This document shows, in pieces, positions 8,023-38,242 of a stretch of DNA of 38,928 nt. The notes below the pieces were generated by a model. That model saw nothing but the letters and a program-made list of their open reading frames with translations. It had not been told where the DNA came from and did not search any database. Within the stretch, counting starts at the first letter, position 1, and each line of letters opens with the position of its first letter. Position numbers and translations under genes: made by a program. Source of the stretch: Actinomycetota bacterium (GTDB lineage Bacteria; Actinomycetota; Acidimicrobiia; Acidimicrobiales; CADCSY01); the NCBI GenBank assembly GCA_019347915.1, contig JAHWKL010000011.1, positions 1 through 38,928 of the forward strand, in the 5' to 3' direction.

Positions 8023-8136
8023 GAACGACATAGTCGGACACGAGCGGGGTGGCAGCACCAGCACCGGTCCGTCGACAGACGCCGGTACCTCGTCGCTCTT
8101 TCGTCCCGCAGGCACACGTCGAGTGAGGAGTGACCG

Positions 8137-12341: not shown

Positions 12342-13349
12342 GTGAGAGTCGAGTCGTCGATCACCTCCATCTCGTGGATTCCTTCCGAGGCGATCAAGGG
12401 GATGGTGAAGCTGCCCTTCGAAGTGGGGGCCGCTCACTACGACCAGGCGCCGCCGGACCACATCGAAGGGCCGGCCACCATCGAGGCGTTGCGGGCCGGC
12501 GACCGGTTCCGCTTCGCCAACCACCTTCGAGCGTGGGTCGACGTGGGCGACGACGGCCGCATCGTCGACCACGGGCAGGGCGGCGGCGGCGTGATGAGCA
12601 ACACCACGGTGAAGATGGGCAGATCGGTGACCGTGGCCGGGGTTCCGCTGCCGGACAGGATCCCCGACCCGGAGATCGGCGACGGCTGGGTCCGTTTCCG
12701 CCAGAGCGCCGGCGGTCGCACCGGCGTGCCCGCGCCCCGGCGGGTCAGCCACCCGCCGTTCGTGCAAGTGACAGCACCGCTGGCGTGGACGACCTTGGAG
12801 CTGACCCTCCACGCCGACGGCCGGACCGAGGGCCGCCTGGCCGGCGCCTCGCCGTTCCCCCGCCACTGGGTGTACGACGCCTCCGGAACGCTCGTCGAGA
12901 AGTCGGGCATGATCGACTTCGACCAGTGGTACCGCCACGCCTTCGGCAAACACTCCCCGTGGGGTGACGAGGATTCCCCCGCCCTCACCACCGAGGTGGA
13001 GACGGCGCTCGAGCGGGAGCTCTCCAGCCGCATCATGCGCGGCGGGCGCAAACCCCGGATCCGCACGGTGAAGCCGGGACACACACTGGTCGAACAGGGT
13101 GAGCAGGGCGAGGAGGTGTTCCTCCTGCTCGACGGCGTCCTCGCCGCCGAGGTGCGCGGCGAGAGCGTGGCCGAGCTGGGGCCGGGTGCGGTGGTGGGCG
13201 AGCGGGCGAGCCTCGAAGGCGGTCGGCGCACAGCAACCCTGCGAGCGCTCACCCCCTGCAAGGTGGCCGTCGCCCGGGACGTGGACCTCGAGCCGGAGGT
13301 GCTGGAGGAGCTCCGCCAAGGCCACCGGCGCGAGGACCAGGCTCGCTGA
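12342..13349 (+). CDS. Cyclic-nucleotide-binding domain protein
   Basis: 335 residues from GTG 12342. The C-terminal 100 or so residues form a CNB (cAMP/cGMP-binding) domain: RTVKPGHTLVEQGEQGEEVFLLLDGVL, then a phosphate-binding cassette GAVVGERASLEGGRRTATLRAL with the conserved Glu and Arg. The N-terminal 235 residues contain no domain I recognise; they hold aromatic-rich stretches such as SPFPRHWVYD and HSPWGDEDSP. A CNB without a DNA-binding or kinase domain suggests a ligand-gated regulator of the unknown N-terminal part. Four bases separate it from the MBL gene, so they are probably co-transcribed. A truncated copy lies at 16186-16864. Confidence 0.8.
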   Translation: MRVESSITSISWIPSEAIKGMVKLPFEVGAAHYDQAPPDHIEGPATIEALRAGDRFRFANHLRAWVDVGDDGRIVDHGQGGGGVMSNTTVKMGRSVTVAGVPLPDRIPDPEIGDGWVRFRQSAGGRTGVPAPRRVSHPPFVQVTAPLAWTTLELTLHADGRTEGRLAGASPFPRHWVYDASGTLVEKSGMIDFDQWYRHAFGKHSPWGDEDSPALTTEVETALERELSSRIMRGGRKPRIRTVKPGHTLVEQGEQGEEVFLLLDGVLAAEVRGESVAELGPGAVVGERASLEGGRRTATLRALTPCKVAVARDVDLEPEVLEELRQGHRREDQAR

Positions 13350-13353
13350 CCGC

Positions 13354-14241
13354 GTGCTGGTGACCTTCCACGGCGTCCGAGGCTCGACGCCATCGCCCGG
13401 TACCGGGTTCACCCGGATCGGCGGGCACACGTCCTGCGTGGCCATCACCGCCGACGGTGACCCCGTGCCCCGCCTGGTGCTCGACGCCGGCACCGGACTG
13501 CGCCGGCTGTCGGCGTCGCTGGGCGGCCGGCCCTTTCACGGGACGGTGATCCTCGGCCATCTCCACTGGGACCACACCCAGGGCTTGCCCTTCTTCACCG
13601 CTGGCGACGACCCACGCGCCGAGGTCGTGGTGCTCGGCCCGGCCCCGCCGGGCGAGACGCTCGAGACCGTCCTGGCCCGCATGATCTCCCCGCCGCTGTT
13701 CCCCATCAGCCCCACGGAGCTGCGGGGCGCATGGGACTTCCGCGCCATCGAACCGGGCCGACTCCATGTCGAGGGGTTCGAGGTGTTGGTACGGGAGATC
13801 CCCCACAAAGGGGGGCGAACGTTCGGCTTGCGGGTGAGCGACGGCGACGCCACCGTCGCCTACCTGTCCGATCACGCGCCGCAGTTCCTCGGGCCGGGCG
13901 AGGACGGCCTCGGTGAGTACCACCCCGCCGCACTGGAGCTCGCCCGGGACGCCGACCTGTTGATCCACGACGCCCAGTACACCGCCGAGGAGCTCGGCGC
14001 CCGGGGGGGATTCGGTCACGCCGCCGCCGAGTACGCCGTCGGGCTCGGCCAGCGGTCCGCCGCCCGGCGCCTGGCCCTGTTCCACCACGATCCGTCGCGC
14101 ACGGACGAGCAGGTGGAGGCCATCGCCGAGTCCCTGGCGGCGCCGGGGCTCGAGGTCGTGGTGGCGCGGGACGGCCTGACCCTGCAGCTCTCGGCGGCGG
14201 GTAGGACGAAGCCCGATGGTGGAGGGGCACATGGATGCTGA
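13354..14241 (+). CDS. MBL-fold metallo-hydrolase
   Basis: 295 residues from GTG 13354 (VLVTFHGVRGSTPSPG, the usual N-terminus of this subfamily). Metal-binding motif HLHWDH at residues 69-74, with a later DHAPQF and the metal-site Asp/His region LLIHDAQYTAEE and ALFHHDPSRTD. It belongs with PhnP/RNase Z-like beta-lactamase-fold hydrolases often annotated near CNB domains, where a phosphodiester or cyclic-nucleotide substrate is plausible but unproven. It starts four bases after the CNB gene and overlaps sthA by 11 bases. The track's extension from 13099 is an out-of-frame shadow. Confidence 0.85.
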   Translation: MLVTFHGVRGSTPSPGTGFTRIGGHTSCVAITADGDPVPRLVLDAGTGLRRLSASLGGRPFHGTVILGHLHWDHTQGLPFFTAGDDPRAEVVVLGPAPPGETLETVLARMISPPLFPISPTELRGAWDFRAIEPGRLHVEGFEVLVREIPHKGGRTFGLRVSDGDATVAYLSDHAPQFLGPGEDGLGEYHPAALELARDADLLIHDAQYTAEELGARGGFGHAAAEYAVGLGQRSAARRLALFHHDPSRTDEQVEAIAESLAAPGLEVVVARDGLTLQLSAAGRTKPDGGGAHGC

Positions 14242-15988: not shown

Positions 15989-16185
15989 CTAGCCCAGCTT
16001 GGGGGCGTGGCCAGGGCAGTACAGAGCCACGCCGGTGCGGATGATGTAGTCGTCCCCTCCCGGGAGGAGCGTGGCGAAGGGCACCTTCTTCACCAGTTGG
16101 GCGCCGGTCGCCTTGACCTGGTCCACGCTCTGACCCTCGTCGAACGCAGTGCAGATGTTGTTGCCCAGCTCGGAAGGCCTGAGCC
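15989..16185 (-). pseudogene. C-terminal remnant of a DUF732-type protein
   Basis: On the minus strand about 65 residues (ELGNNICTAFDEGQSVDQVK... DDYIIRTGVALYCPGHAPKLG) match the C-terminus of small secreted DUF732 proteins, which end with an Asn-x-x-Cys helix and an ALYCP motif. The reading frame continues upstream only into antisense of the CNB copy, so the signal peptide and N-terminus are gone. The breakpoint is at about 16185. I infer a recombination event brought the CNB fragment here and beheaded this gene. Confidence 0.7.
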
Positions 16186-16864
16186 CGACACCGGCGAGGG
16201 GTGGGTCCGCTTCCGCCAGAGCGCCGGCGGTCGCACCGGCGTTCCCACGCCCCGCCGGGTCAGTCACCCGCCATTCGTGCAGGTGAGCGCCCCGCTGGCC
16301 TGGACGACGCTGGAGCTGGCGCTCCACGCCGACGGTCGAGCCGAAGGCCGCCTGGCCGGCGCTTCGCCGTTCCCCCGCCACTGGGTGTACGACGACACCG
16401 GGAACCTGGCCTCCAAGTCGGGCATGATCGACTTCCACCAGTGGTATCGGCGCGCCTTCGGCAAGCACTCCCCGTGGGGAGACGAGGACTCCCCCGCCCT
16501 CACCACCGAGGTGGAGACTGCGCTCGAGCGCGAGCTCTCCACCCGCATCATGGGCGGCGGGCGCAAACCCCGGATCCGCGCCGTGAAGAAGGGACACACC
16601 CTGGTCCAAGAGGGTGAGCAGGGCGAGGAGATGTTCCTCCTGCTCGACGGGGTGCTGGCCGCCGAGGTGGGCGGCGACAGCGTCGCCGAGCTGGGGCCCG
16701 GTGCGGTGCTGGGCGAGCGAGCCATCCTCGAAGGTGGTCGGCGCACGGCCACGCTTCGAGCCCTCACCCCCTGCAAGGTGGCCGTGGTCCGGGACGTGGA
16801 CCTGGACCCGAAGGTGCTCGAGCAGCTCCGGGAAGGCCACCGGCGCGAGGACGAGGCTCGCTGA
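16186..16864 (+). pseudogene. 5'-truncated copy of the CNB-domain protein
   Basis: From GWVRFRQSAGGRTGVPTPRRV onward this is a close copy of residues from about 107 to 335 of the protein at 12342-13349, including a complete CNB domain with cassette GAVLGERAILEGGRRTATLRAL. The first third of that gene is absent. The track's ORF starts at 16007, but its first 60 or so codons are antisense to the DUF732 remnant, so that start is not trusted. DNA similarity continues past the stop into the first 25 bases or so of the MBL gene, then ends. It may still be expressed as a free CNB domain, but no promoter or ribosome site is seen. Confidence 0.75.
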
Positions 16865-17036: not shown

Positions 17037-18113
17037 ATGGGTCTCCGCTACGAAGCACCGCCTCGCCCGGCGATCAGCGAGCGGCCAATGCTCGCCAGGG
17101 ACACCGCCGCCGGGGCCCGAGCCGTCGCCGGCAACGTCGACCTGCGCCTGCTCTTCGGTCTGGGCTTCGCCCAGAACTTCGTCCGCGGTGCCCTCAACGT
17201 GTTCGTGGTCGTCATCGCCCTCGAGTTGCTGCGCACCGGCGAGTCCGGTGCTGCCGCCCTGTTCGCCGCCGTCGGGGCCGGCGGGTTGCTCGGGTCGTTC
17301 GGGGTGGCGTTCCTCATCGGGAGCCGTCGCCTCGGGTGGTGGCTGGCCATCGCTCTTGTCCTGTGGGGCGCCCCGATCGCCGCCGTCGTCGCCGTGCCAA
17401 TGGAGTCGGTCGTGCTGGCGCTGCTCGCCGTCGTCGGCCTCGGGAACGCCATCATCAACGTACCGTTGTTCACCCTTCCGGTACGGCTGGCGCCGGATGC
17501 CGTGCTGGCTCGGGCATTCGGGATCTTCGGGAGCCTCATCGCTCTGGGTGTTGCCCTGGGTTCGGCGGTGACACCTGTGCTCATCACCCTCGTCGGGTTG
17601 CGGGGCGCCCTCGTGGCCACCGGGCTACTCCTACCCGTCCTGGCCGCCGTCTTCCTGCCGCGACTGCGGTTGCTGGACGGGCGCCTCCAGGTGCGGGACG
17701 CGGAGATCCAACTCCTGCGCACCACGCCGATGTTCGCCCTGCTACCGGTACCGACGATCGAGCACCTCGCCTCCTCTCTCCGTCGCCGCCGTCTCCCGGC
17801 GGGGGCGGTCGTGTTCCGGCAAGGCGACGCCGGCGACACCTTCTACTTCGTCGACCAAGGAGAAGCCGAGGTGATCGGTGACGGTGAGGTCGTGGCCACC
17901 ATCGCCCACGGCGACTTCTTCGGCGAGATCGCACTGCTTCACGACGTCCCCCGCACCACTACGGTGCGGGCTCGAACCGACCTCAGTGTGCTCGAGATCG
18001 AGCGCCAGGAGTTCCTGGACGCGGTGTCCGGTTACCGCTCCAGCAGCGACGCCGCCTCCGCCATCGTCGCCCGGCACCTCGCCCGTTTCAGTCCTGGCAC
18101 GGTACGGCTCTGA
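17037..18113 (+). CDS. 5'-truncated MFS transporter-CNB fusion (paralogue)
   Basis: 358 residues corresponding to residues 203-560 of the intact protein at 20974-22656, roughly nine in ten identical by eye. The first half of the MFS domain is missing. The ATG at 17037 corresponds to a CTG in the intact copy and marks the duplication edge, so it is a fortuitous start with no ribosome site. The remaining membrane helices and the C-terminal CNB domain (HGDFFGEIALLHDVPRTTTVRA) are uninterrupted. It cannot be a normal transporter. It is probably a decaying gene, unless a half-transporter-CNB protein is made. Confidence 0.65.
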   Translation: MGLRYEAPPRPAISERPMLARDTAAGARAVAGNVDLRLLFGLGFAQNFVRGALNVFVVVIALELLRTGESGAAALFAAVGAGGLLGSFGVAFLIGSRRLGWWLAIALVLWGAPIAAVVAVPMESVVLALLAVVGLGNAIINVPLFTLPVRLAPDAVLARAFGIFGSLIALGVALGSAVTPVLITLVGLRGALVATGLLLPVLAAVFLPRLRLLDGRLQVRDAEIQLLRTTPMFALLPVPTIEHLASSLRRRRLPAGAVVFRQGDAGDTFYFVDQGEAEVIGDGEVVATIAHGDFFGEIALLHDVPRTTTVRARTDLSVLEIERQEFLDAVSGYRSSSDAASAIVARHLARFSPGTVRL

Positions 18114-18173
18114 TGCACGCCCGACTCCCTGAACCAGGCGTACACGGGCCCCCGAGAGGAGTGGCCGTGCCGG

Positions 18174-20641: not shown

Positions 20642-20914
20642 CACGGTGGTGCTGACGCCCCCATCACCGACCATCGCGGTGTCCTTGGTGGTGGCTCGCC
20701 TCAGCCCATACGGCTGCCACGACCCCGAAGCGGGTGGCGGGCCCCCTTGAATGTCCGTCGTCACCGGAGCCAAATGGCACCGTGCCCGAACGCCACGTCA
20801 CCGATCGCCAGGTCACGGTGTTCCGTGCCGACGACAACCTGATCGTCCGCTGAGGCTCCGTGCGCTCATCGGGCTGGAGCCCCCGACCTGACCGTGGTGG
20901 GCACCACCGGTGAC
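20642..20914 (+). pseudogene. Relic of the upstream region and first codons of the response-regulator-cyclase gene
   Basis: This stretch matches about 27758-28025 base for base over long runs: a GGTGGCT-type upstream region, GGCTGCCACGACCCC, GGGCCCCCTTGA, and then a reading frame from GTG 20782 (VPERHVTDRQVTVF, DDNLIVR) that stops after 23 codons where the intact gene reads on. Similarity resumes beyond the stop (GACCTGACCGTGGTGGGCACC), so a small deletion and substitutions broke it. The gene for the second FtsX permease, present between the equivalent parts in the intact region, is missing here. Confidence 0.8.
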
Positions 20915-25161: not shown

Positions 25162-25182
25162 TGGGGTTGACACGCCGCTGGT

Positions 25183-25201
25183 TGGGGTGGTGGCAACCCC
25201 A
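25183..25201. promoter_or_regulatory. Inverted repeat TGGGG-N9-CCCCA upstream of the second FtsX permease
   Basis: TGGGG and CCCCA separated by nine bases. The same motif with the same spacing occurs at 27821-27839 upstream of the response-regulator-cyclase gene. It lies about 80 bases before the short leader ORF. Could be an operator for one of the local response regulators. Confidence 0.35.
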
Positions 25202-25330: not shown

Positions 25331-27748
25331 GCGTGATCCGGTTCTGGCTGGCCACCACCGTGCGAAGGCGCGCCCGCTCCTACGCCGGCGTCGCCGTGCT
25401 CCTGGCCTTGTTGGGGGGGTTGACCCTGGCCTCCTTCGCCGGCGCCCGCCGCACCGCCTCGGCCTACCCGCGCTTCAGGGAGGCGGGGCAGGCGCTCGAC
25501 GTGGTGTTCTTCCACGTCGACGACCCGGACCACGTCTTCGAGGTCCCGGGCGTCACGAGCGCGGCCACCTACTTCGCCTTCGTCGCCCGCGCAGTGGACG
25601 CCGAGGGGCGGCCTGACCCCCGCTTCGCAGACGTGAACGCCGAGTTGGCGGGGAGCTTCGACGGCCTGTACTTCTCCCGTGACCGGTTCGCCGTCACCAA
25701 GGGGCGGGTGCCCGATCCCTCCCGGGCCGACGAGGTGGCGGTGAACGAGCACCTCGCCGCCATGGGTGTGGGCCTGAGCGACCGCAACACGATCGGCATC
25801 TTCGACCCGGCGCAGGAAGAGACGCGGTCCACAGCGACGCGCCGCCACCACCTGTCGCCGTCGTCGAGGTCACGGTGGTGGGCATCGGGCTGTTCCCCGA
25901 CGAGGTGGTCCAGGACGAGACCGACCGGTTCGGGCGGGTGCTCCTCACGCCCGCCTTCACGGCCGAGCAGCGCCGCTGGGCGGCGTACGCCTGGACCGGC
26001 GTCTCCCTCGCAGGCGGGGAGGACGGGGTGGAGCGCTTCAAGCGGGACTACGTCGCCAAGCTTCCGCCCGGCATGGGCACGTCGTTCCGGGAACGGGCGA
26101 GCGTGGTCGACCGGACTCAGGATGCCGTCCAGCCCCTTGCCGTCGCCCTGGGCGCGTTCGGCGTCATGGCGCGGTCGCCACCCTCGTGCTCGTGGGCCAG
26201 GCGCTCGTGCGACTGCTCCGGTCGGACCGTCAGGATCTGGTGAGCATCCGGGCCATGGGCGCCGGCCCGGGGACGGTCGCCTCGCTGCCCGTCCCGGGTC
26301 TGGCCGCGTCGGTCGCGACCGGTGCCGCTGGTGCAGTGGGTGTGGCGGTGGCGCTGTCGCCCATCGCGCCGATCGGTCCCCTGCGCAGAGTCGAGGTGGA
26401 GCCGGGCGTGACCTTCGACTGGGCCGTGCTGCTCCCGGGAGTCGCCGGCCTCGCCCTCGCCCTCATCACCGTGAGCATCATCGCCGCTCTCCGCCAGGCG
26501 CCGCACCGGGGCCAGGCCCGGGCCCCTCTCGACGTCCGCCGGCGGTCGAGGCTCGCCGGGACCGTGGTCGCCACAGGCCTCCCGCTGCCTGCCGTCGCCG
26601 GCATGCGCCTCGCCCTCGAGTCGGGCCACGGACGCACGCCGGTTCCGGCGCGAGCTGTGATCGTCGCAGCGGTCGTGGCTGTCGTGACCCTCGTGGCGTC
26701 GCTGGTGTTCGGCACCAGCCTGCGGTCCCTCGTCGACAGACCACAGCTCTACGGGTGGGACTGGGACCTCACGGTGCTGGACGAATCCGGCTACGGGAAC
26801 ATCGACGTGGAGGAGGCGGCGACGATCCTGGAGGGCGACCCTGGTGTCGCCGGCTGGTCGAGCGCCTACTTCAAGTCCATTGAGCTCGAGGGCATCGAGG
26901 TACCGGTCATCGGCATGCAGCCGGACGCCCCAGTGACCCCGCCGCTGCTGGCCGGTCGTGCGGTGCAGGCGGCGAACGAGATCGTGCTCGGACGGGACAC
27001 GCTGCACGTGCTGGGTAAACGGCTCGGCGACACTGTGGTGCTCGGGCCCGATGGGGCCGACCGCGTGCTCCACATCGTCGGCGTCGCCATCTTCCCCACC
27101 GTCGGCCCGATCCTCGGCGCCTACACGTCCCTCGGGGACGGGGCGATGATGGTCTACGACCAGGTCCCCAACTGGGACGAGGTCGGCCACGGTCCCAAGG
27201 CGCTGTTCGTGCGCTTCCGTTCCGGGGAGAACGTGAACGCGGTCACCGACCGGATCCAGGGAAGCCTGGTGAGCGTCGGTCGGTTCCCGGGATCCGCCCA
27301 GGTGTTACCCGTGCAGCGCCCAGGCGAGATCGTGCACTACGGATCGATGGGCGCCGCGCCCGCACTGTTGGGTGGCGTGCTCGTGTTGGCGGCGATGGTA
27401 TCCCTCGGCCTCGCCCTGGCCTCCGGTGTGGGACGTCACCGCCGAGACCTGTTGGTCCTGAAATCGCTGGGTTTCACCGGCCGCCAGGTGTCGGCCACGG
27501 TCGTGTGGCAATCGTCGCTCATCGTCGCCATCGCGCTCGTGGTCGGCGTGCCGCTCGGCATCGGTCTCGGACGGTGGCTCTGGATCGTCTTCGCCGAGCG
27601 GCTCCCCGTGCTGGCCGTTCCGTCAGTGCCAGCGCTTCTCCTGGTGGGCATGGCCGTGGCGCTGGTGGTCCTCGCCAATCTGGTCGCCGCCGTGCCCGCC
27701 CGGCGTGCCGCCCGCACGCCGGTCGCCACCATCCTCCGATCCGAGTAG
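25327..27748 (+). pseudogene. FtsX/MacB-type ABC permease disrupted by two frameshifts
   Basis: An otherwise full-length permease of about 807 residues. It begins VSVIRFWLATTVRRRARSYAGV (GTG 25327), with the GARRT...AY motif after helix 1. Near 25822 the frame must change to continue into VAVVEVTVVGIGLFPDEV, and near 26167 again into ATLVLVGQALVRLLRS; the third segment ends LPARRAARTPVATILRSE-like (VPARRAARTPVATILRSE). Each break corresponds to one missing base, and total length is 3n+1. Neither site is a homopolymer run, so these look genuine, but read-level checking is needed to exclude consensus error. If real, the gene is dead or makes a short product. Confidence 0.8.
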
Positions 27749-27893: not shown

Positions 27894-29240
27894 GTGCCCG
27901 ACCACCACGTCACCGACCGGCAGATCACCGTGTTCCTCGCCGACGACAACGTGATCGTCCGCGAGGGCGTCCGCGCCCTCATCGGCCTGGAGCCCGACCT
28001 GACCGTGGTGGGCACCGCCGGCGACTACGAAGGCCTGGTCTCGGGGGCCGAGGACACCTCGCCACAGGTGGTCGTGACCGACATCCGCATGCCGCCGACC
28101 TTCCAGCAGGAAGGCATCGACGCGGCCAAGCAGGTCCGCAAGCGGCATCCCGGCACCGGCGTGGTCGTCCTCTCCCAGTACGACGACCCCGAGTACGCCA
28201 TCTCGCTCCTGGGCGAGGGCTCGGCCGGGTACGCCTACCTGTTGAAGGACCGGCTGGCCGACGGCGACCAGCTGGCTCGGGCCATCCGTGAAGTGGCGAC
28301 CGGCGGCTCACTGCTCGACCCGTCCATCGTCGAGGCCATGGTGAACCCGGTCAGGTCGACCGGTGACCTGTCGCCGGCGGAGGAGGAACTGCTGCAGCTC
28401 GTCGCCGAGGGTCGACCGCTGAAGGCCATCGCCGCCGCCCAGGGCACCACCCCCGAGGCGATCGCCGATGGAGTGGAGAGCCTGTTCCTCAAGCTGGCCG
28501 AGGAGGCGAGCACGGGGGCGAGCAGCTCGCTGCGGCGCCTGCGCATGCTCCACCAGGCCATCGTGATGCGCGAGGAACAGGGTGAGACCCTGAGCCGGCT
28601 GCTGCCCGGCGGCGTGGCCGAGAAGCTGCGCCGGGAGGGCCGCCGGATCGGCGAGACGGAGACCCTCGACGTGACCGTGCTGATGTCCGACATCCGTGGC
28701 TACTCGACGATCGCCGAGCACGCCGACCCCTCGGTGCTGGCCGGCCAGCTGAACGAGCACCGAGCGGCGATGAACCAGGCCGTGCTGGGCGAGGGCGGGA
28801 CGGTGATGCAGTTCGTCGGTGACGCCGTGATGGCCGTGTTCGGCGCGCCTCTGGCCGAGGACGACCACGCCGGTCGGGCCGTCACCGCCGCCTGCGGGAT
28901 GCACATGGCTCAGGCGGCGGTGAACCAGCGATGGCGTGCGCATGGGCTGCCGGAGTTCGGACTCGGCATCGGCTTGTCGAGCGGCCGGGTGGCGGCTGCC
29001 CTACTGGGCTCCGACGAACGCCTGGAGTACAGCCTGGTCGGGGACGCGGTGAACCTGGCCCAGCGCCTCCAGCAGTGGGCGCAGGCAGGACAGACGGTGG
29101 TGAGCCAGCGCACGGCGGAGTTGCTGCCGGCATCACCACACAGCCTGGGCGTGGAGCTCGAGGCCCTCGAGCCCGCCCAGGTGAAGGGAAGAGACGCCAC
29201 GGTGCACGCCTACCGAGTCGTCACGGCGGTTCGTCCGTGA
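27894..29240 (+). CDS. Response regulator with degenerate HTH and class III adenylate/guanylate cyclase domain
   Basis: 448 residues from GTG 27894. Receiver domain (residues 8-130) with acidic pocket ADDN, phospho-acceptor Asp63 in VVVTDIRMPP, and Lys in LLKDRL. Residues 155-200 (LSPAEEELLQLVAEGRPLKAIAAAQGTTPEAIADGVESLFLKL) align with the LuxR HTH of the regulator at 37577 but lack its basic recognition residues. Class III cyclase domain from about 255: metal-binding Asp266 (MSDIRGYS) and Asp310 (VGDAVMAVFG), transition-state Asn387 and Arg391 (VNLAQRL). The purine-selecting positions are Gln306 and Ser380 instead of the classic Lys and Asp/Thr, so ATP versus GTP is not certain. Predicted cytoplasmic, making cyclic nucleotide on phosphorylation. 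Confidence 0.88.
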   Translation: MPDHHVTDRQITVFLADDNVIVREGVRALIGLEPDLTVVGTAGDYEGLVSGAEDTSPQVVVTDIRMPPTFQQEGIDAAKQVRKRHPGTGVVVLSQYDDPEYAISLLGEGSAGYAYLLKDRLADGDQLARAIREVATGGSLLDPSIVEAMVNPVRSTGDLSPAEEELLQLVAEGRPLKAIAAAQGTTPEAIADGVESLFLKLAEEASTGASSSLRRLRMLHQAIVMREEQGETLSRLLPGGVAEKLRREGRRIGETETLDVTVLMSDIRGYSTIAEHADPSVLAGQLNEHRAAMNQAVLGEGGTVMQFVGDAVMAVFGAPLAEDDHAGRAVTAACGMHMAQAAVNQRWRAHGLPEFGLGIGLSSGRVAAALLGSDERLEYSLVGDAVNLAQRLQQWAQAGQTVVSQRTAELLPASPHSLGVELEALEPAQVKGRDATVHAYRVVTAVRP

Positions 29241-29352
29241 GGCACCTCGTGGTGGTGCCAGCATCACCGCGAGCTCGCATGCCTGCCCTCTTCCCGTCGG
29301 GCGGACGTTCTGGCTCAATGGGGGCCGATCGGGACGAGAGAGGACCAAGCCG

Positions 29353-30174
29353 ATGAGCACGAGCGGTACGGCAGAGGGGCTGGCAGCGGGGTCGGCAGAG
29401 GCGCTGGCAGAGAGGCCGGCAGCGGTGCTGGAGGTGACCGGCCTCCGCAAGACCTACGAGTCCGAGGGGGCGCCCGTACGGGCCCTGCGAGGCGTGACCA
29501 TGTCGATGGCGGCGGACGAGTTCGTCGCCGTCATGGGGCCCTCCGGGTGCGGCAAGTCGACGCTGCTGAACCTGGTGGCCGGGCTGGACACTCCCAGCGA
29601 GGGCGAGATCGTCCTCGCCGGTCAGTCCCTCGCCGACAAGGACGAGAACGAGCTGGCCCGCATTCGCCGGGCCCACATCGGGATCGTCTTCCAGTTCTTC
29701 AACCTGCTCGAGGGCATGAGCGTGCTGGAGAACGTCGCCCTGCCCGCCATCATCGCCGGCAGCCGGCGCAGACAGGCCGAGACCAGGGCCAGAGACCTTC
29801 TCGACCTCCTCGGGCTGGCCGACAAGGCCAAGAGCGCCCCCAGCGTCCTGTCCGGCGGCCAACGCCAGCGCCTGGCCATCGCCCGGGCACTGGCCAACAA
29901 GCCCACGCTCCTCCTGGCCGACGAGCCCACGGGAGCGCTCGACACCGCTGGCGGCCTCGAGGTGTTGGAGCTGTTCCGCCGGCTGCACTCCGACGGCCAG
30001 GCCATCATGATGGTGACCCACGACGAGGAGGTGGCCACGGCAGCCGACCGGATCGTCCGCATGCGCGACGGTCGCCTGGAGGGCGCGGCGGAGGCTCCGG
30101 TGGTGACCGCGGCGGGTGACGGCGACCCGCTGACCAGCTTCGGAACCCCCGCCGAGGCGTCACCGCCCGAATGA
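29353..30174 (+). CDS. ABC transporter ATP-binding protein (LolD/MacB type)
   Basis: 273 residues, ATG 29353 with AGAGGA upstream. Walker A GPSGCGKST, Q-loop VFQFFNLLEGMSVLENVALPA, signature LSGGQRQRLAIARALANKP, Walker B LLLADEPTGALD and H-loop VTHDEEVA are complete. The ADEPTGALD sequence and the lack of a regulatory C-terminal domain place it in the LolD/MacB/BceA group that works with FtsX-type permeases. It is one base before the histidine kinase and is the only such ATPase for the window's permeases, so sharing among them is likely. About 25 N-terminal residues are low-complexity. Confidence 0.92.
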   Translation: MSTSGTAEGLAAGSAEALAERPAAVLEVTGLRKTYESEGAPVRALRGVTMSMAADEFVAVMGPSGCGKSTLLNLVAGLDTPSEGEIVLAGQSLADKDENELARIRRAHIGIVFQFFNLLEGMSVLENVALPAIIAGSRRRQAETRARDLLDLLGLADKAKSAPSVLSGGQRQRLAIARALANKPTLLLADEPTGALDTAGGLEVLELFRRLHSDGQAIMMVTHDEEVATAADRIVRMRDGRLEGAAEAPVVTAAGDGDPLTSFGTPAEASPPE

Positions 30175-30175
30175 C

Positions 30176-32359
30176 ATGACCACGGCGCTCGACCGTACGA
30201 GCTCGACCTCGACCTCCACCTCCGACGGAGCGGCGCTGACGGCGACGGCCTTGTTCCGTACCGCCGGGCTGAGGCTCGCCATGGCGCCGGTCGCCATCGC
30301 GTCGGCGGTCGGCGCCGCCGTGCTCGCACGGGGCGCGAGTGAGGCCGACACGGCCGTGCTGTACGCGGTGACGGTGACGGCGTGGGCGGTCGCCGGCGTG
30401 ATGATCACCATTCGCCGTCCCGGCGAGCGCCAGGGCCAGTTGGTCCTGGGGGCCTCGCTGGCGGGGGCGGTGGCGGTCCTGGCCGCCGCCGTGGTGTGGG
30501 CTGCCGGTGACGGTCGGGAGGTGCCCACCCTGGTCGAGGCCGCGCTCCTCGCCCGACCCGTGGCGCTGGGCCTGCTGGTGGCGGCGGGGATGCACGTGCT
30601 GTTGACGCTGCCCGACGGCAGGTGCGGCATCGGCCGGATCGTGGTCGCTGGCGGCTACGCCACCGGCGCGGTCACCGGGCTGCTGCTGTGGCTGTACCGC
30701 CCGTCCCTCCCTTTGTGGCCCATCGCCGTGGAGGCGGTCCTGGCCGGCGCCATCGGCCTGGGCGGCTCCCACCGCCGGTACCGGCGGGCAACCGGCCTCG
30801 AGCGCCAGCGCATGCAGTGGTTCGGGTGGGCGGTGGCGGTGGGGGTCGAGGTCGCCGTGATCGCCGTTGCCCTCCGTCTTCTCTGGGGTTGGCCGGACGG
30901 CGGCGCCGGCATCGCCATGGCCGCCACCCTGCCCATCCCCCTGGCCCTGGCGCTGGGATCCTCAAAGAGGCTGATCGGCCGGGTCGACGCCCTGCTGGCC
31001 CACACCGTCTCACTGGCCGGGCTCAGCGGGGTCGTGGCCGCCGTGTACCTGGTCATCGTCCTGGGCCTGGGACGGGTCCCGACCGACACCGATCGGCCCC
31101 TGCTGGGCCTGTCGATGGTGGCCGCCGCCGTGGCCGCCGTGCTCTACCTCCCGGCACGCCAGCGCCTGGCCGAGTTCTCGAACCGCCTGGTCTACGGCGA
31201 GCGAGAGCCGCCCGACCAGGTGCTCAAGACCTTCGGCAGCCGTCTGTCGCGGGCGATCCCCCTCGACGAGCTCCTGCTCCAGGTGGCCGAGTCGCTGCGC
31301 AAGACCCTGTCGCTCACGGTCGCCGAGATCTGGACGGGCTCGGAGGGCCGGCTCGAACGGTCGGTCTCGGTGCCCGATGCCCCGCCGACCCGTCTGGTGC
31401 TGGCCCCCGACGAAGAGGCGGTGGTGGCCCGGGCCGGCGTGTCGGGCTCGGCGTGGGTCAAGGTCTGGATGAGCGGTCTGCTGGCGGGGCGGGAGAGCTC
31501 GGCCCTGCGGGTGGCGCCCATCACCCACTCGGGCCACCTCCTCGGGCTCATCGTCGCCGTCCGGCCCCCCGCCGGCGACGCCTTCAACGAGGAAGAGGAC
31601 CGGACCCTCACCGAGCTGGCCCGCCAGCTCGGCCTCGCCCTGCACAACGTCCAGCTCGACTCCGCCCTGCAGTCCACGCTCGACGAGGTCCGCCGCCAGG
31701 CGGAGGAGCTGCAAGCCTCCCGGTCCCGCATCGTCGCTGCGTCCGACGCCGCCCGCCGGCAGATCGAGCGCAACCTCCACGACGGCGCCCAGCAGCACCT
31801 GGTGGCCCTGGCCGTCAACCTCCGTCTGGCCCGGCAGATCGCCGAGAGCGATCTCGAGGTGGCCAAGGAGATGCTCGAGCAGCTCGGGCACGACCTCCAG
31901 GACGCGGTCCAGGAGCTGCGCAACCTGGCCCACGGGATCTACCCGCCGCTCCTGGTCGACCGGGGCCTACCCGAGGCCCTCTCCGCCGCCGGCGGCCGTT
32001 CCGCTCTCCCCACCCGGGTCGTCGCCGACGGCATCGGTCGCTACTCGCCCGAGGTGGAGGCGGCGGTGTACTTCTGCTGCCTCGAAGCCATGCAGAACGC
32101 CGGCAAGCACGCCGGGGACGGGTCGACCATCACGGTCCGGGTGTGGGAGGAGGCCGGTGCCCTCCTCTTCGAGGTGGCCGACGACGGGGCCGGGTTCGAC
32201 CCCTCCGGCCGCGTCACCCCGGGCGCCGGCTTCGTCAACATGGGCGACCGCGTCGGCGCCATCGGTGGCACGTTCGGCGTGCAGTCCGCTCCCGGCCGTG
32301 GAACCCGGGTGTCGGGGCGGATCCCCCTACCGGCCGGGAGCGAGCAGGCCACGTCGTGA
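30176..32359 (+). CDS. Membrane sensor histidine kinase, NarL/HisKA_3 type with GAF domain
   Basis: 727 residues from ATG 30176. The N-terminal 330 residues hold about eight to ten hydrophobic helices (MAPVAIASAVGAAVLA, VTVTAWAVAGVMITI, GLSGVVAAVYLVIVLGLG and others). A GAF-like domain covers about 355-500, a coiled linker about 500-525, then the HisKA_3 phosphoacceptor His535 in QIERNLHDGAQQHLVALAVN. The HATPase domain has N-box CCLEAMQNAGKHA and G-box DDGAGFDPSG. It sits between an ABC ATPase and an FtsX permease, overlapping the latter by four bases (GTGA), a layout reminiscent of peptide-sensing ABC/two-component modules. Likely partners are the regulators at 27894, 37119 and 37577. Confidence 0.9.
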   Translation: MTTALDRTSSTSTSTSDGAALTATALFRTAGLRLAMAPVAIASAVGAAVLARGASEADTAVLYAVTVTAWAVAGVMITIRRPGERQGQLVLGASLAGAVAVLAAAVVWAAGDGREVPTLVEAALLARPVALGLLVAAGMHVLLTLPDGRCGIGRIVVAGGYATGAVTGLLLWLYRPSLPLWPIAVEAVLAGAIGLGGSHRRYRRATGLERQRMQWFGWAVAVGVEVAVIAVALRLLWGWPDGGAGIAMAATLPIPLALALGSSKRLIGRVDALLAHTVSLAGLSGVVAAVYLVIVLGLGRVPTDTDRPLLGLSMVAAAVAAVLYLPARQRLAEFSNRLVYGEREPPDQVLKTFGSRLSRAIPLDELLLQVAESLRKTLSLTVAEIWTGSEGRLERSVSVPDAPPTRLVLAPDEEAVVARAGVSGSAWVKVWMSGLLAGRESSALRVAPITHSGHLLGLIVAVRPPAGDAFNEEEDRTLTELARQLGLALHNVQLDSALQSTLDEVRRQAEELQASRSRIVAASDAARRQIERNLHDGAQQHLVALAVNLRLARQIAESDLEVAKEMLEQLGHDLQDAVQELRNLAHGIYPPLLVDRGLPEALSAAGGRSALPTRVVADGIGRYSPEVEAAVYFCCLEAMQNAGKHAGDGSTITVRVWEEAGALLFEVADDGAGFDPSGRVTPGAGFVNMGDRVGAIGGTFGVQSAPGRGTRVSGRIPLPAGSEQATS

Positions 32360-34710
32360 GGGCGGCGATCGCCCTCTGGGTGCGCAGCGAGGTGGGCCGG
32401 CGCTGGAAGGCGCTGGTCGCCCTGGGCATCATGGCCGGTCTCGTCGGCGGGCTGGCGATGGCGGCGGTGGCCGGCGCCCGGCGCACGGATACGGCCTACC
32501 AGCGCTACCGCGAGGCCACCGGCCGGGCCGACGCCATCGTCTTCGGCACCCTCGCCGGCATCTTCCCTGCCGACTACACGGCGGTGCGGGACCTTCCCGA
32601 GGTGGAGGACGCCGGCGAGTTCACCCTTGCCCCGCTCGGTGTGGAGGGGTTCCCCACGCTGGGGCAACTCGCTCCCAACGACGACCGGCTGTACCGCACG
32701 GTCGCCAGCCCGCTGCTGGTGGCCGGGCGGCTTCCCGATCCGGGCCGGGCCGACGAGCTGGTGGTCAACCGCAGCGCGGCCAGAGAGCTCGGCCTCGGCG
32801 TCGGGGACCGTGTGAGGGTCCTGTCGTCCACCGAGTTGTTCGACCCAACAGCACCGCTCGGCACCGGTCCGTCGGTCGAGGCCACGGTCGTCGGTATCGG
32901 AACCTCCGTCATGGAGTTCATCTTCCTCGACGGCGGCGAGGAACACGCGTTCTTTCCCAGCGCCGCCCTGCTGGGCGACCACCCGGAGATACCGCGGGCC
33001 GGCAACCTGGTGGTCCGTCTGCGCCAGGGTGCCGACGTCGCCGCGTTCGGTCGCCGCGCCGCGGAAGCCATGGGCGTGCCCTATCTCCCCGTTCGCGACC
33101 TGGCCGAGGACACCAAGCGGATCACTCACGCCACCGACCTGGAACGCACCGCGCTGCTGCTCTTCGCCGCCGCCGTGGCGTTGGCGGGCATCGTGCTGGT
33201 CGGGCAGGCCCTCAGCCGGTCCATCTACGCCCTGGCCCAGCCGGCCTCGGCGCTGCGCGCCCTCGGTTTCACCCGCAAGGGGCTCGTCTCCGGGTTGGCG
33301 CTGCCCCTGTCGCTGACCGCGGCCACGGGCGCGCTGACGGCCCTGGGAACCGCGCCTGCCCTGTCCCAGTGGTTCCCCATCGGCCTGGCCGGGCGGCTCG
33401 AACCCGATCGGGGTTTGCACGCCGACTGGCCCGTGGTCCTCGCCGGTGCGGTGATGATCGGGCTCATGGTGATGGTTGGTGCGGGCCTGTCGGCGGTGCG
33501 GGCAACCAGCTCACGCACCCGAGCGGTCGTCGCCACCGGACGCTCCCCAGTGGCGGCCCTCCGCCGGCTGCGCGCAACCCCGCTACCCGCGGTCATCGGC
33601 GCCGGACTGGCGCTGGAGCGGGGCGAGGGCGAACGAGCCCTGCCGGTACGCCCGGCCCTGGCCGGCACCGTCGCCGCCGTGCTGGGCGTGGTCGGCGCCT
33701 TCGGGCTGCTGCACGGGATCGACGACGCCCTGGCCCGACCGGAGCGATCGGGGCAGTTCTGGCATGCCGCACTGCTGCCCGGTGAAGGCCAGCCAGTGGA
33801 GGAGCTGATGACAGCCGTCGCCGCCGCCGAGGGGGTGAGCGACGTCTACCTCGTTCGGAACTCCGACGTCGATCTCGACGGTGTCGGCGTGGCGCTCTAC
33901 GCCCTCACGCCCCACCGGGGCAGCCGGACGTTCACGGTGCTGGAGGGGCGCCCACCGGTGACCCCCGACGAGATCGTGCTCGGGCCGGCGACCGCCCATG
34001 CCCTGGGCAAGGAGGTCGGTGACCCTGTGCTCGTGGAAGGAGCCGCCGCCCGTGAGGTCCGGGTGGTCGGGAAGGGCCTGTTCACGCAGACGCCCCACTT
34101 CTCCTTCGACCAGGGTGCCTGGATGTCGGTCGACGGGTTCGATGCGGTGGCACCTCCCGGCGACGGGGCGAGGGACGAAGGGGTCCTGGCCCGCTTCGCG
34201 CCGGGCGTGCCCGTCGAGGCAGGCATCGCCGGGCTGGCGGAGCGGCTCGGCTCGAACGTCGAGATCGAGCCCGCCGGGCTGCCCCAGGACGTGGCCTTGC
34301 TCGGCAACGTCCGCATCCTGCCCAAGGCGCTGGCCGGCTTCCTGGTGCTCCTCGGCGTCGGAGCCCTCGGCCACGTGCTGGCCACCGCGGTGCGCCGGCG
34401 GCGTCACGACCTGGCCGTGCTGCGGGCCCTGGGCTTCCGGCCGCTGCAGGTGGGCGGTTGCGTGGCCTGGCAGGCGGTCACGGTGTCGTCGGTGGCCCTG
34501 GTGGTCGGCATCCCCCTCGGCATCGCCGCCGGCCGCTGGTCGTGGCGATGGGTGGCCGACGCCACTCCCTTGCTGTACATCCCACCCCTGGCCACCACTG
34601 TCGTGGTCCTGTCGGTACCGGCCGCACTGGTGCTGGCCGGCGTGATGGCTGCGCTGCCCGCCCGCCGCGCCGCCCGACTGCGCCCGGCCGACGTCCTGCG
34701 CGCCGAGTAG
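32356..34710 (+). CDS. FtsX/MacB-type ABC transporter permease
   Basis: 784 residues from GTG 32356, overlapping the kinase stop (GTGA). The track's 1362-residue ORF from 30622 is this gene plus an antisense-free shadow of the kinase. First helix region ALVALGIMAGLVGGLAMAAVAGARRTDTAYQRY, an extracytoplasmic domain with ADELVVNRSAARELGLGVGDRV, FtsX block (LLLFAAAVALAGIVLVGQALSR), a second extracytoplasmic domain (TPDEIVLGPATAHALGKEVGDPV), and final FtsX block ending LPARRAARLRPADVLRAE. Co-transcribed with the ATPase and kinase. Confidence 0.9.
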   Translation: MRAAIALWVRSEVGRRWKALVALGIMAGLVGGLAMAAVAGARRTDTAYQRYREATGRADAIVFGTLAGIFPADYTAVRDLPEVEDAGEFTLAPLGVEGFPTLGQLAPNDDRLYRTVASPLLVAGRLPDPGRADELVVNRSAARELGLGVGDRVRVLSSTELFDPTAPLGTGPSVEATVVGIGTSVMEFIFLDGGEEHAFFPSAALLGDHPEIPRAGNLVVRLRQGADVAAFGRRAAEAMGVPYLPVRDLAEDTKRITHATDLERTALLLFAAAVALAGIVLVGQALSRSIYALAQPASALRALGFTRKGLVSGLALPLSLTAATGALTALGTAPALSQWFPIGLAGRLEPDRGLHADWPVVLAGAVMIGLMVMVGAGLSAVRATSSRTRAVVATGRSPVAALRRLRATPLPAVIGAGLALERGEGERALPVRPALAGTVAAVLGVVGAFGLLHGIDDALARPERSGQFWHAALLPGEGQPVEELMTAVAAAEGVSDVYLVRNSDVDLDGVGVALYALTPHRGSRTFTVLEGRPPVTPDEIVLGPATAHALGKEVGDPVLVEGAAAREVRVVGKGLFTQTPHFSFDQGAWMSVDGFDAVAPPGDGARDEGVLARFAPGVPVEAGIAGLAERLGSNVEIEPAGLPQDVALLGNVRILPKALAGFLVLLGVGALGHVLATAVRRRRHDLAVLRALGFRPLQVGGCVAWQAVTVSSVALVVGIPLGIAAGRWSWRWVADATPLLYIPPLATTVVVLSVPAALVLAGVMAALPARRAARLRPADVLRAE

Positions 34711-34721
34711 AGGTCCACGTC

Positions 34722-37109
34722 GTGCGGGGGGTGCTCTTCCTGCTCGGAACGTGGCGGCGGCGGCGGCGGGCCGCCCTGGCTGGCGTCGCCCTCCTTGGGG
34801 CGGTGTCGCTCGGCTTCGTGTTGCTGGCCGGCCTCGGCGCCCACCGCTCGGGCACGGGCTGGGAGAGCCTGCGCCGTCGGACCCTGGACGGAGACGCCAT
34901 CCTCGACGTCACGTCGTTCGATGCCGCCCTCCGGGTCTCCGCAGGCGCGCGACGGGTCCCGGGCGTCGCCGAGGCCGTCGCCTTGGCCCTCGCTCCGCTG
35001 GTGCCCGAAGGCCGAGCGGACCTGCTCCCCGGGGCCCTCCTCACCCTCGAGCCCGGAGGGTTCGAGGAGGTGATGCGACCCGTGATCACCGCCGGCCGGC
35101 GTGCCAATCAGGGACTGGTTGAGGAGGTCGTCGTCAACGAGGTCTTCGTCGAAGTCGCCGGGCTCGGCCCCGGCGACCGGTTCACCATGGTCGACCCCCT
35201 CGGCCTCGTCAGCCAGGAGGTCACGATCGTCGGGGTCGGCGTGGTGGCGAACGACTTCAGCCTGGGCGCCGGGTACCCGGTCGCCTACCCGACCATCGCC
35301 TTCACCCAGGCATGGGAGGCACCGCTGCGGCAGATCATCGACGATGCGTTCGGCGCCGCCGTCTTCGTGACCCATAGCGCGGGCGCCGATGGCTCCCAGG
35401 TACGGGCTCGGCTGATCGACTCCGTGCCGGGCAGCGACCTGGTCGAGGTGAGCGATGTGTCGGTCACGGCCGCCCAAGTCGTCGACACGCTCAGGTTGCA
35501 GCGCAACGGTTACCTCGCCCTCGCTGTCGTGGGCGGTGTGGCGACGTTGTCGATCCTTGCGCTGGTGCTGGCGCGGGTCACTCGGACGCAGCCGACCGAG
35601 GCCAATGCGCTCGCGGCACTGGGGTTCACCGGGCGCGACCTGCGGCTTGCCGTCCTCGTTCCGGGAGCACTCGCCGCCGCCGCCGCCCTTGTCGGGGCGA
35701 CCGTGGTCGTCGCCCTGAGCGAGAGCCTGGTGCCTACCGGCCTGGCCCACAGGGTCGGTGCCGGGCGAGACGTCAGCGACGACGCCGGGTTCTTCGCCGT
35801 GTCGACGATTGGGGCCGCCGCCGCACTGGCCAGCCTTGTCGCCGCGGTGGCATGGCGTGCTACCCGCGAGGTGTCGAGCGCAGCGCCGCCGGCGCGGCCA
35901 CGGTCGGGTGCCCTGGCGTGGCCGTCCGTGGGAGCAGGCCTGCGGGCGGCCACCGGCGGCCTCGCCTCCGCCGGTCGCCGGCACGCATGGGCCACGGGTG
36001 CGACCGTGGCCATCGCCTGCATCGGCATCGTCGCCATCGACGTCGTCGGGGAATCACGGGAGGGCCTGCGCGCCGACCTCTCGCGAACGGGAAAGTTCTT
36101 CGACGTCTACCTCTTCGGCTACACCGACCCGGCGGCTGCGGCAGCCGACCGGGAAGCGCTCCTGGCGTCACCTTCGGTCACCGGCCTCGCCACCATCGAG
36201 TCGTTCCGGGCGCGGGTCGACGGTCTCGGGATCGCCGGCATCTCGGTGATCACCCACAAGGGCGGTCTGGCGACGACCATCGTCGAGGGCCGGGCCCCGG
36301 TGGGCGACGACGAGTTAGTGGCGTCCGCCCCCTTCCTGCGCCGGCTCCACCGTGGGGTGGGCGACACTGTGGAGTTCTCCGGCCCCGCCGGCACACGACG
36401 GTTCCGTGTCGTCGGCGCCGCCGCCCTGCCCTACGTCGCGTCCACGGCCGTCATCGGCGAGCAGGTGGCCGTGACCGCCGAAGCCGGGCGAGCTCTGGGC
36501 ATCGAACCCGAGTTCTTCGCCATCGCCGCCGACGTGGCCCGCCCGGCGCTCCTGCGCCAGGTACGCGCCGGCTACGACAGGATCGACGCGTGCGACACGC
36601 CGGCCATCCTTCGCATACTCGGCGTCGACCGGCTGGAAGGCCCGGCGAGCGGAGGGGTGTCCCTGTGCGTCCCCCGGACCGACCAACGCGTGTTGAACCT
36701 CGACGAGCTGGGGGCGCTCCCGGGCGCGGCCGCGGGGCTTTTCGCCGTCCTCGGCGTGGCCGGGCTGGCCTACCTCCTCAGCGCCTCGTTCCGCCAGGCC
36801 CGGAGGGACCTCGCCGTCCTGCGAGTGCTCGGCTTCACCCGCCGGCAGTCGACCACCACCGTCCTCGTCCAGGCCGCGGCGGTCGCGCTCGTCGGAGCGT
36901 TGCTGGCACTGCCCATCGGCGTCGCCCTCGGTCGCGCCGCATGGCGGGGGGCGGCCGACGGCATTGGCATCATGGTCGTGCCCGAGGTGTCGCTGGCCGG
37001 GACGCTCGGGGTGGCGGCGGGAGCAGTGGCCGTCGCCGGTGTGCTGGCAATACCCTTCGCCGCCAGAACCGTCCGACACGCCCCGGGAAAGCTGCTCCGG
37101 ACCGAGTAA
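34722..37109 (+). CDS. FtsX/MacB-type ABC transporter permease, second of the operon
   Basis: 795 residues from GTG 34722 with GAGG upstream, 11 bases after the previous permease. Same architecture: first helix AALAGVALLGAVSLGFVLLAGLGAHRSGTGW (lacking the GARRT motif of the others), two extracytoplasmic domains with VEEVVVNEVFVEVAGLGPGDRF and GDDELVASAPFLRRLHRGVGD, and final helices ending IPFAARTVRHAPGKLLRTE. It is the most diverged permease in the window. It could form a heterodimer with the 32356 protein driven by the 29353 ATPase. Ends nine bases from the convergent receiver gene. Confidence 0.88.
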   Translation: MRGVLFLLGTWRRRRRAALAGVALLGAVSLGFVLLAGLGAHRSGTGWESLRRRTLDGDAILDVTSFDAALRVSAGARRVPGVAEAVALALAPLVPEGRADLLPGALLTLEPGGFEEVMRPVITAGRRANQGLVEEVVVNEVFVEVAGLGPGDRFTMVDPLGLVSQEVTIVGVGVVANDFSLGAGYPVAYPTIAFTQAWEAPLRQIIDDAFGAAVFVTHSAGADGSQVRARLIDSVPGSDLVEVSDVSVTAAQVVDTLRLQRNGYLALAVVGGVATLSILALVLARVTRTQPTEANALAALGFTGRDLRLAVLVPGALAAAAALVGATVVVALSESLVPTGLAHRVGAGRDVSDDAGFFAVSTIGAAAALASLVAAVAWRATREVSSAAPPARPRSGALAWPSVGAGLRAATGGLASAGRRHAWATGATVAIACIGIVAIDVVGESREGLRADLSRTGKFFDVYLFGYTDPAAAAADREALLASPSVTGLATIESFRARVDGLGIAGISVITHKGGLATTIVEGRAPVGDDELVASAPFLRRLHRGVGDTVEFSGPAGTRRFRVVGAAALPYVASTAVIGEQVAVTAEAGRALGIEPEFFAIAADVARPALLRQVRAGYDRIDACDTPAILRILGVDRLEGPASGGVSLCVPRTDQRVLNLDELGALPGAAAGLFAVLGVAGLAYLLSASFRQARRDLAVLRVLGFTRRQSTTTVLVQAAAVALVGALLALPIGVALGRAAWRGAADGIGIMVVPEVSLAGTLGVAAGAVAVAGVLAIPFAARTVRHAPGKLLRTE

Positions 37110-37118
37110 CGGCCCCGC

Positions 37119-37511
37119 CTACATCGCCAGCCGGCCACCGGCGCGTTGTGCCCACACGTCCTCGAGCACCCGGGGGCCGAAGTCCTCCTTGTGAACGTAG
37201 GCCAGGGCACCGGAGGTGCCCGCGTCGGCCGGGAGGTCCTCGGCCTGGTAGGTGGAGAGCAGGACCACCGCCACCTCCGGCCATCCCGAGGTGATGCGAC
37301 GGGTGGCCTCGATGCCGCTGATCCCGCCCATGTTGATGTCCATCAGGACCAGCTGGGGCACCAGGGCGCCGGCGAGCTCCACCGCCTCCTCGCCCGACTC
37401 AGCCTCCCCGACGACCTCGAACCCGCCGGTGATCTTGACCACGGCCGCAGCCGCCCGGCGGAACGGCGCCTGATCGTCGACGATCAGGACGGAGACGGCC
37501 TCGGTGCCCAT
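37119..37511 (-). CDS. Receiver-domain-only response regulator
   Basis: 130 residues from ATG 37511, preceded by GGGAGG at nine bases; the track's starts at 37559 and 37520 are less good. VSVLIVDDQAPFRRA, Asp58 in LVLMDINMGG, LLSTYQ, and Lys108 in AYVHK make a complete receiver domain. No output domain follows, so it acts by protein contact or as a phosphate sink. Eighty-eight bases of this gene recur inverted at the right end of the window. Confidence 0.88.
   Translation of the reverse strand: MGTEAVSVLIVDDQAPFRRAAAAVVKITGGFEVVGEAESGEEAVELAGALVPQLVLMDINMGGISGIEATRRITSGWPEVAVVLLSTYQAEDLPADAGTSGALAYVHKEDFGPRVLEDVWAQRAGGRLAM
37276..37363. repeat. Inverted repeat arm, exact match to 38841-38928
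   Basis: 88 bases inside the receiver gene are identical, in reverse complement, to the last 88 bases of the window. The match stops precisely at 37363/38841 (next bases differ) and may continue past the window edge on the other side. Confidence 0.95.
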
Positions 37512-37576: not shown

Positions 37577-38242
37577 TCAGCCCCCCGCGTCGGCCAGGAA
37601 CAGCAGCACCGCCTTCACCCGCCGGCTCACGTCACGCTCCTCCGACAGGCCCAGCTTGGAGAACAGCGAGTTGATGTGCTTCTCGACCGCCCGCTCGGAG
37701 AGCACGAGGGAGGCGGCGATGGCGGCGTTGTTCTTGCCCTGGGCCATCTCGGAGAGGACCTCGCCCTCGCGAACGGTGAGATCACGAAGCGGTGACGGAG
37801 CCTTCGACCGTGCCGTGACCAAGGCGTCGATCACCTTGGGGTCGATGACGGAGCCGCCGCGGGCCACCTCTCGGATGGCCGACAACAGCTGGTCGATGTC
37901 CGACACCCGCTCCTTGAGCAGATACCCACGTCCTCGCGATCCCTTCTCCAGGAACTGGAGCGCATACTGCGGATCGGCGTACTGGCTCAAGACCACCACG
38001 CCGGCCTCCGGCAGGATCCGGCGCACGTGCTCGGCGGCCTGAATCCCCTCGTTGGTGCCGGTCGGTGGCATCCGAATGTCCGTCAGCACCACGTCAGGTC
38101 GATGGGCCTCGACGGCCACGATGAGAGAGTCGTAGTCCTTGCACGCCGCCGCCAGCTCCAGCTCGGGTTGAGCCTCGATCAGCCGGGCCATGCCCTCCCG
38201 CAGGAGATAGTTGTCCTCGGCCAGGACCAGCCTGATGGCCAC
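37577..38242 (-). CDS. NarL/FixJ-family response regulator
   Basis: 221 residues from GTG 38242 (MAIRLVLAEDNYLLREG). The track's TTG at 38260 and the GTG at 38251 are alternatives, but TAGGGT lies seven bases before 38242. Receiver domain with Asp55 in VVLTDIRMPP and Lys in LLKERV; LuxR-type HTH about residues 148-195 (LTVREGEVLSEMAQGKNNAAIAASLVLSERAVEKHINSLFSKLGL). It is clearly paralogous to the receiver and HTH part of the cyclase at 27894. Probable cognate transcriptional output of the kinase at 30176, whose HisKA_3 type pairs with NarL regulators. Confidence 0.92.
   Translation of the reverse strand: MAIRLVLAEDNYLLREGMARLIEAQPELELAAACKDYDSLIVAVEAHRPDVVLTDIRMPPTGTNEGIQAAEHVRRILPEAGVVVLSQYADPQYALQFLEKGSRGRGYLLKERVSDIDQLLSAIREVARGGSVIDPKVIDALVTARSKAPSPLRDLTVREGEVLSEMAQGKNNAAIAASLVLSERAVEKHINSLFSKLGLSEERDVSRRVKAVLLFLADAGG

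Follow-up and report, generated by a model that had tools for sequence, protein, structure and literature searches.

The window, which is the whole stretch of 38,928 nucleotides analysed here, carries a gene for a response regulator whose DNA-binding output has likely been replaced by cyclic-nucleotide synthesis, probably as one arm of a forked two-component system in which a candidate receptor and a candidate phosphodiesterase serve the messenger. Its make-up of a receiver (REC), a LuxR-like HTH and a class III cyclase was confirmed from sequence, as were the invariance of the catalytic and phosphorylation residues, the degeneration of the HTH, the conservation of the gene neighbourhood and a palindrome in front of these genes.

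We infer the following course of events. The HisKA_3 kinase (30176-32359) would phosphorylate D63 of the cyclase. The phosphorylated REC may then alter the packing of the dimer, with the degenerate HTH and the long helix of residues 208-252 passing on the change, and the altered packing would bring two class III catalytic domains into an active head-to-tail dimer. The expected product is a purine cyclic nucleotide, with cAMP as the likeliest candidate. The cyclic-nucleotide-binding (CNB) protein of the same conserved block would read this messenger, and the neighbouring metallo-beta-lactamase-fold phosphodiesterase would break it down. In parallel, a paralogous, intact NarL may bind a 7-2-7 palindrome before the same genes, so that one sensor family would feed both a transcription arm and a second-messenger arm.

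Such a system would be a clear case of a DNA-binding domain of a transcription factor seemingly kept as a mechanical part while the output was replaced. Because the paralogue beside the cyclase still looks able to bind DNA, the conversion is testable residue by residue. It would also supply a complete candidate pathway to a cyclic nucleotide in actinobacteria, with two-component sensor, cyclase, receptor and hydrolase, and the CNB protein family brings with it a first domain without known relative.

A codon model was used to predict open reading frames in the window and in 80 loci with homologues, and the frames were then clustered. Synteny counts include only loci with enough flanking DNA. 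The features are listed in Table 1.

Table 1. Features of the window, with positions counted from its first nucleotide.
Feature	Position	Strand	Remarks
REC-HTH*-class III cyclase gene, 448 aa	27894..29240	+	translation, Pfam, 80 homologous loci
Receiver (REC) domain, residues 11-135	27924..28298	+	phospho-acceptor D63, acid pair D17 D18, S94 and K118 invariant
Degenerate LuxR/NarL-type HTH, residues 159-202	28368..28499	+	loss of basic recognition residues, acidic net charge
Long helical linker that runs into the catalytic domain, residues 208-252	28515..28649	+	conserved REEQGETLSRLLPGG motif; alignment, AlphaFold
Class III cyclase catalytic domain, residues 258-435	28665..29198	+	metal D266, D310; Q306, S380, N387, R391, K431
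Palindromic operator-like site GGTGGTGCCAGCATCACC upstream of the ABC/kinase operon	29250..29269		20.9 bits, strongest in window
Weaker palindromic site TGGGGCTGCCACGACCCCAA	27821..27840		54-73 bp upstream of cyclase start
CNB protein with new beta-rich N-terminal domain	12342..13349	+	candidate messenger receptor
Metallo-beta-lactamase-fold hydrolase (PF12706)	about 13354..14241	+	candidate atypical class II phosphodiesterase
Second CNB copy, N-terminally truncated	16007..16864	+
ABC-transporter ATPase of exporter downstream of cyclase	29425..30174	+
Sensor histidine kinase: long N-terminal part, GAF, HisKA_3, HATPase_c	30176..32359	+	candidate kinase of cyclase
FtsX/MacB-like permease	32356..34710	+
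Second FtsX-like permease of the same operon	34722..37109	+	clusters with FtsX permeases
Stand-alone receiver domain protein	37119..37511	-	conserved neighbour
NarL-type response regulator, intact GerE HTH	37577..38242	-	paralogue of cyclase REC-HTH part

The cyclase gene and its family

Translation of the cyclase frame gave 448 residues followed by a stop. Pfam placed Response_reg at residues 13-113 (5.8e-14) and Guanylate_cyc at residues 258-435 (1.7e-21; 77.1 bits against a cut-off of 21.9). The latter model also scored above its cut-off in 39/39 relatives. All residues expected of a response regulator (D17, D18, D63, S94 and K118) are invariant in the family, as are the two metal Asp (D266, D310) and the transition-state Asn (N387) and Arg (R391) of class III cyclases. 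Across the homologues D63, the acid pair, K118, D266, D310, Gln306, N387, R391 and K431 do not vary, bar one unread residue. The sequence-only reading had described a complete class III catalytic domain behind a REC and HTH that align with the neighbouring NarL-type regulator. Both points are borne out, the second by a BLASTP match (46% identity, E 3e-53) that spans residues 11-201.

The REC-LuxR-like-cyclase architecture was searched for in a scan of species genomes. Homologues with 60-73% identity, nearly all full-length, were found at 80 loci, which rules out chance or artefact as the source of the architecture. Almost all belong to Actinomycetota and two are labelled Dormibacterota. The taxa, which span several actinobacterial orders, are Acidimicrobiia, Nitriliruptoria/Egibacteraceae/Euzebyaceae, Streptosporangiaceae, Jiangella, Planotetraspora, Planobispora and Agromyces. 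The distribution is patchy: counting the window's genome, 7 of 40 relatives have the cyclase. A search for plasmid carriage gave no match.

A second cyclase subfamily (L094-L109) shares about 45% identity over the full length and has a degenerate HTH too. Position 306 is Lys in 14/15 of its members and position 380 is Thr. In most of its loci the cyclase gene lies within ~100 bp of the NarL partner gene and is divergently oriented. HisKA_3 kinases flank this cyclase/NarL pair, and the loci are without the CNB gene.

A receiver-domain tree placed cyclases and NarL partners together in one clade, apart from the genome's other regulators. The outgroup rows were few and long-branched, and the branching order of cyclases and NarL partners inside the clade was not resolved; conversion of a transcription factor into an enzyme, as proposed from the sequence alone, is therefore the likeliest direction only. 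The conserved architecture and the partner that keeps its DNA contacts agree with it.

Catalytic domain, candidate receptor and candidate hydrolase

Compared with the structures of Cya2 and CyaB, the catalytic domain gave a TM of 0.87-0.89 of target. In the alignment, Gln306 stands where CyaB has its substrate Lys and Cya2 its Glu, and Ser380 corresponds to the CyaB Thr. Instead of a canonical purine pair (Lys with Asp/Thr in adenylyl, Glu with Cys/Gly in guanylyl cyclases), the family has Gln306 with Thr/Ser380. This pair marks a subtype and not the class, and Gln306 does not exclude class III membership. The protein shares its catalytic fold, metal and transition-state residues and Thr/Ser380 with class IIIb adenylyl cyclases such as CyaB of P. 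aeruginosa and CyaC of Spirulina, but Gln replaces the purine Lys and a NarL-type REC-HTH is attached.

Both purine-selecting residues had been read as non-classic. For Gln306 this stands, since the residue is invariant (78/78) in the first subfamily. Ser380 is no real departure because position 380 is Thr in 60 family members and Ser in 16, so it is a conservative variant of the class IIIb Thr. With Lys retained in the sister subfamily, Gln306 is a trait fixed in the first. Among other class III cyclases of the phylum, Lys was found in 30/38 and Gln in 6/38, the window's own among the 6; Gln at this position is thus uncommon yet not unique.

Residue 306 does not fix the product, since Gln matches neither the Lys of adenylyl cyclases nor the Glu of guanylyl cyclases. 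The product is probably cAMP. We consider it unlikely that cGMP or a mixture is made, with Gln306 selecting guanine and cGMP being read by a CNB cassette that has Thr after its phosphate-binding Arg. The split between Gln and Lys in the two subfamilies would suit cGMP, as would Thr297 beside the invariant Arg in 39/40 CNB proteins and the cGMP-dependent kinases among the best CNB-profile matches. However, the guanylyl cyclase Cya2 has Glu and not Gln at position 306, and Rv0386 has Gln at the substrate position and is an adenylyl cyclase. PMC3466318 describes for Rv0386 an alternative mode of substrate selection that departs from the canonical one. In addition, some CNB proteins adjoin Lys-type cyclases.

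The CNB profile matches the CNB domains of PKG, PKA and channels. Its phosphate cassette GERA...R is invariant (G286-E287-R288-A289 and R296). In known CNB domains these residues hold ribose and phosphate. The N-terminal ~200 residues form a strongly conserved, beta-rich domain (SWIPSEAI...HYD.PPPD...FPRHWVYD). Outside the CNB domain no Pfam match was found in this protein, and a structure search with the N-terminal domain returned matches dominated by CNB domains. The second CNB copy (16007-16864) is close to the first and lacks roughly 100 residues at the start of the profile.

PF12706, the Pfam family of the linked hydrolase, is also the family to which Rv1339, YhfI and CpdA, atypical class II phosphodiesterases, are assigned (PMC9293780), and the hydrolase has HxHxDH. 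In terms of the published motif [T/S]HxHxDH, the window copy has HLHWDH preceded by Gly, and many relatives have Thr or Ser there. The NCBIfam cyclic-nucleotide phosphodiesterase model gave a nearly full-length, weak match (2e-7). At 30.6 against a cut-off of 400 bits, the hydrolase scores well under the model's threshold and forms a separate subfamily. Its C-terminus also resembles RNase Z.

Across the loci, the CNB gene is divergent upstream of the cyclase in 53/73 and the hydrolase gene likewise in 50/70. The window is an exception, with both genes 14 kb from the cyclase and not divergent from it. Among 247 genomes of the phylum, the CNB protein occurs in 12/14 with a full-length first-subfamily cyclase and in 13/233 others. 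In CNB loci without that cyclase, another class III cyclase homologue lies close by in 10/14, three of these 10 being weak matches. A CNB-cyclase fusion in these orphan loci, hinted at by overlapping open frames, was ruled out by the frame lengths.

These counts bear on a further reading, in which the cyclase is gated by phosphorylation, its messenger has CRP-like factors elsewhere as targets, and the linkage of the CNB and hydrolase genes to it has other reasons. cAMP receptors are often of CRP type, the N-terminal domain of the CNB protein has no assigned function, and in the window the two genes are distant. We hold this reading to be improbable, since across several orders no upstream neighbours of the cyclase are more constant than the CNB and hydrolase genes, and the CNB gene stays near other class III cyclases where the first-subfamily cyclase is missing.

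The degenerate HTH, the intact NarL partner and the palindrome

Pfam gave no GerE match in the window's cyclase itself. GerE did match in 9/39 relatives, at best with 1.3e-4, which identifies residues 159-202 as an HTH of the LuxR type. An unrelated linker at residues 155-200 was ruled out by these matches and by the alignment with the NarL partners. The same alignment found no intact DNA-contacting HTH in the cyclases. R162, R188, K192, H193 and N195 are each kept in 43/44 NarL partners (n=44, from cyclase loci and related loci) and replaced in the cyclases, mostly R162 by A/D/S, R188 by E/A, K192 by A/D, H193 by A/E and N195 by E. The basic DNA-contact residues of the recognition helix are therefore missing from an otherwise GerE-homologous HTH, and the loss noticed in the single sequence holds family-wide. 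Mean net charge was -2.7 for the cyclase HTH and 0.05 for that of NarL partners; for the recognition helix it was -2.1 and +0.9, respectively.

In an AlphaFold model of the cyclase (mean pLDDT 80), the HTH helices are kept and run on into a long helix, 210-236, that enters the cyclase domain. The pTM was 0.51, so the domain arrangement in the model is not fixed. The REEQGETLSRLLPGG motif of the linker is present family-wide. The model fits a structural, dimerising and transducing role for the degenerate HTH. The earlier suggestion of a dead HTH kept as a transducing linker gains from helices that continue as a linker would, though this is no proof.

The palindrome GGGGTGCYRGCACCCC consists of two heptamers inverted about 2 bp (7-2-7), which is the arrangement known for NarL. 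Before the cyclase gene its best match reached at least 13/16 in 44/79 loci, compared with ~2 per 79 in shuffled DNA. A weight matrix was built from the intergenic sites before the cyclase, with the sites before the receiver-only gene left out. Before the receiver-only gene it found sites of at least 11 bits in 21/30 loci and in 0/30 shuffled controls (printed values). In the second-subfamily loci, where NarL is present and the CNB gene absent, it found 10 sites of at least 15 bits, and in 14 CNB loci without this system it found none. The palindrome thus follows the intact regulator, and the intact NarL partner is likely its binder.

Throughout the family, related sites are conserved in front of the genes for the cyclase, the CNB protein, the receiver-only protein and the exporter. 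Further GGGGTGCYRGCACCCC-related sites in the window lie at 25182-25201, 20644-20663 and 8044-8063. In the window's genome the only perfect palindrome is the site at 29251, and a genome-wide regulon was not detected, with pattern counts of 80 compared with 90 in the reversed control.

A NarL orthologue (55-63%) was found in 8/8 tested genomes, which were those whose loci stopped short of the NarL gene. Most of these 8 have a NarL-type match of at least 53% on the contig that carries the cyclase, at a distance of 6-25 kb from it.

It is very unlikely that the cyclase has retained DNA binding at the palindrome and so doubles as a transcription factor. Its HTH does keep the helices and core residues, and a palindrome lies directly upstream of the cyclase gene, but the recognition positions are acidic or neutral and variable, in line with the negative mean charge. 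The palindrome also occurs with NarL in loci of the distant 45% subfamily and is absent from CNB loci without the system, and a NarL partner was present in every genome tested for one.

Comparison with known systems and the cyclase operon

The preferred reading, a regulator turned to cyclic-nucleotide synthesis, was compared with known systems. With NarL/DevR-type regulators the protein shares a homologous REC and HTH over residues 11-201, and sequence comparison matches it to the structures of DevR and NarL. The kinase linked to it belongs to the HisKA_3 type, which serves the NarL/DevR family. The cyclase protein differs from these regulators in having lost the HTH recognition residues and in adding a class III cyclase.

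Mycobacterial CHD+LuxR proteins have the LuxR domain C-terminal. They include Rv0386, Rv2488c and kin, and they too combine cyclase and LuxR in one actinobacterial protein (PMC3466318). They have no receiver, whereas in the window's protein the cyclase comes after REC and a dead HTH, and the order REC-HTH-cyclase sets the protein outside that family. PMC3466318 is a census of 991 actinobacterial LuxR proteins; in the parts consulted, the cyclase combination named is the mycobacterial one, and the REC-LuxR-cyclase architecture is absent from the lists. No description of such proteins was found in the limited set of papers searched.

We suggest only tentatively that the locus is a self-contained cassette new to description, in which one kinase family serves both an intact NarL, controlling the locus by way of the 7-2-7 palindrome, and a converted REC-HTH*-cyclase, whose messenger would have its own phosphodiesterase, a new class of CNB receptor with a novel N-terminal domain and a Gln-type purine pocket.

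A Pycsar-like anti-phage system is highly improbable: PADLOC cyclase models match the catalytic domain (5e-22) and effector models the CNB domain (6e-11), but these matches cover generic cyclase and CNB domains only, the CNB is joined to no TIR or transmembrane killing part but to a different beta-rich fold, and the cyclase stands under a two-component receiver with a linked hydrolase.

Downstream of the cyclase, an ABC ATPase gene was found in 41/68 loci, a HisKA_3 histidine kinase gene in 36/51 and a kinase or FtsX gene in 47/51. The shared operon is circumstantial evidence for phospho-control of the cyclase, with this kinase as the candidate partner. The Jiangella loci and most Planotetraspora loci are without a kinase within 5 kb downstream of the cyclase. 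The receiver-only gene and the NarL partner gene often come after the cyclase operon genes.

Genes for FtsX/MacB-type permeases are numerous around the cyclase (18088-19830, 22718-25126, 26186-27748, 32356-34710 and 34722-37109). In some lineages a secreted lipoprotein replaces the ABC ATPase between cyclase and kinase (L016:6329-7603, L044:6326-7597). This lipoprotein resembles two cupredoxin-type repeats.
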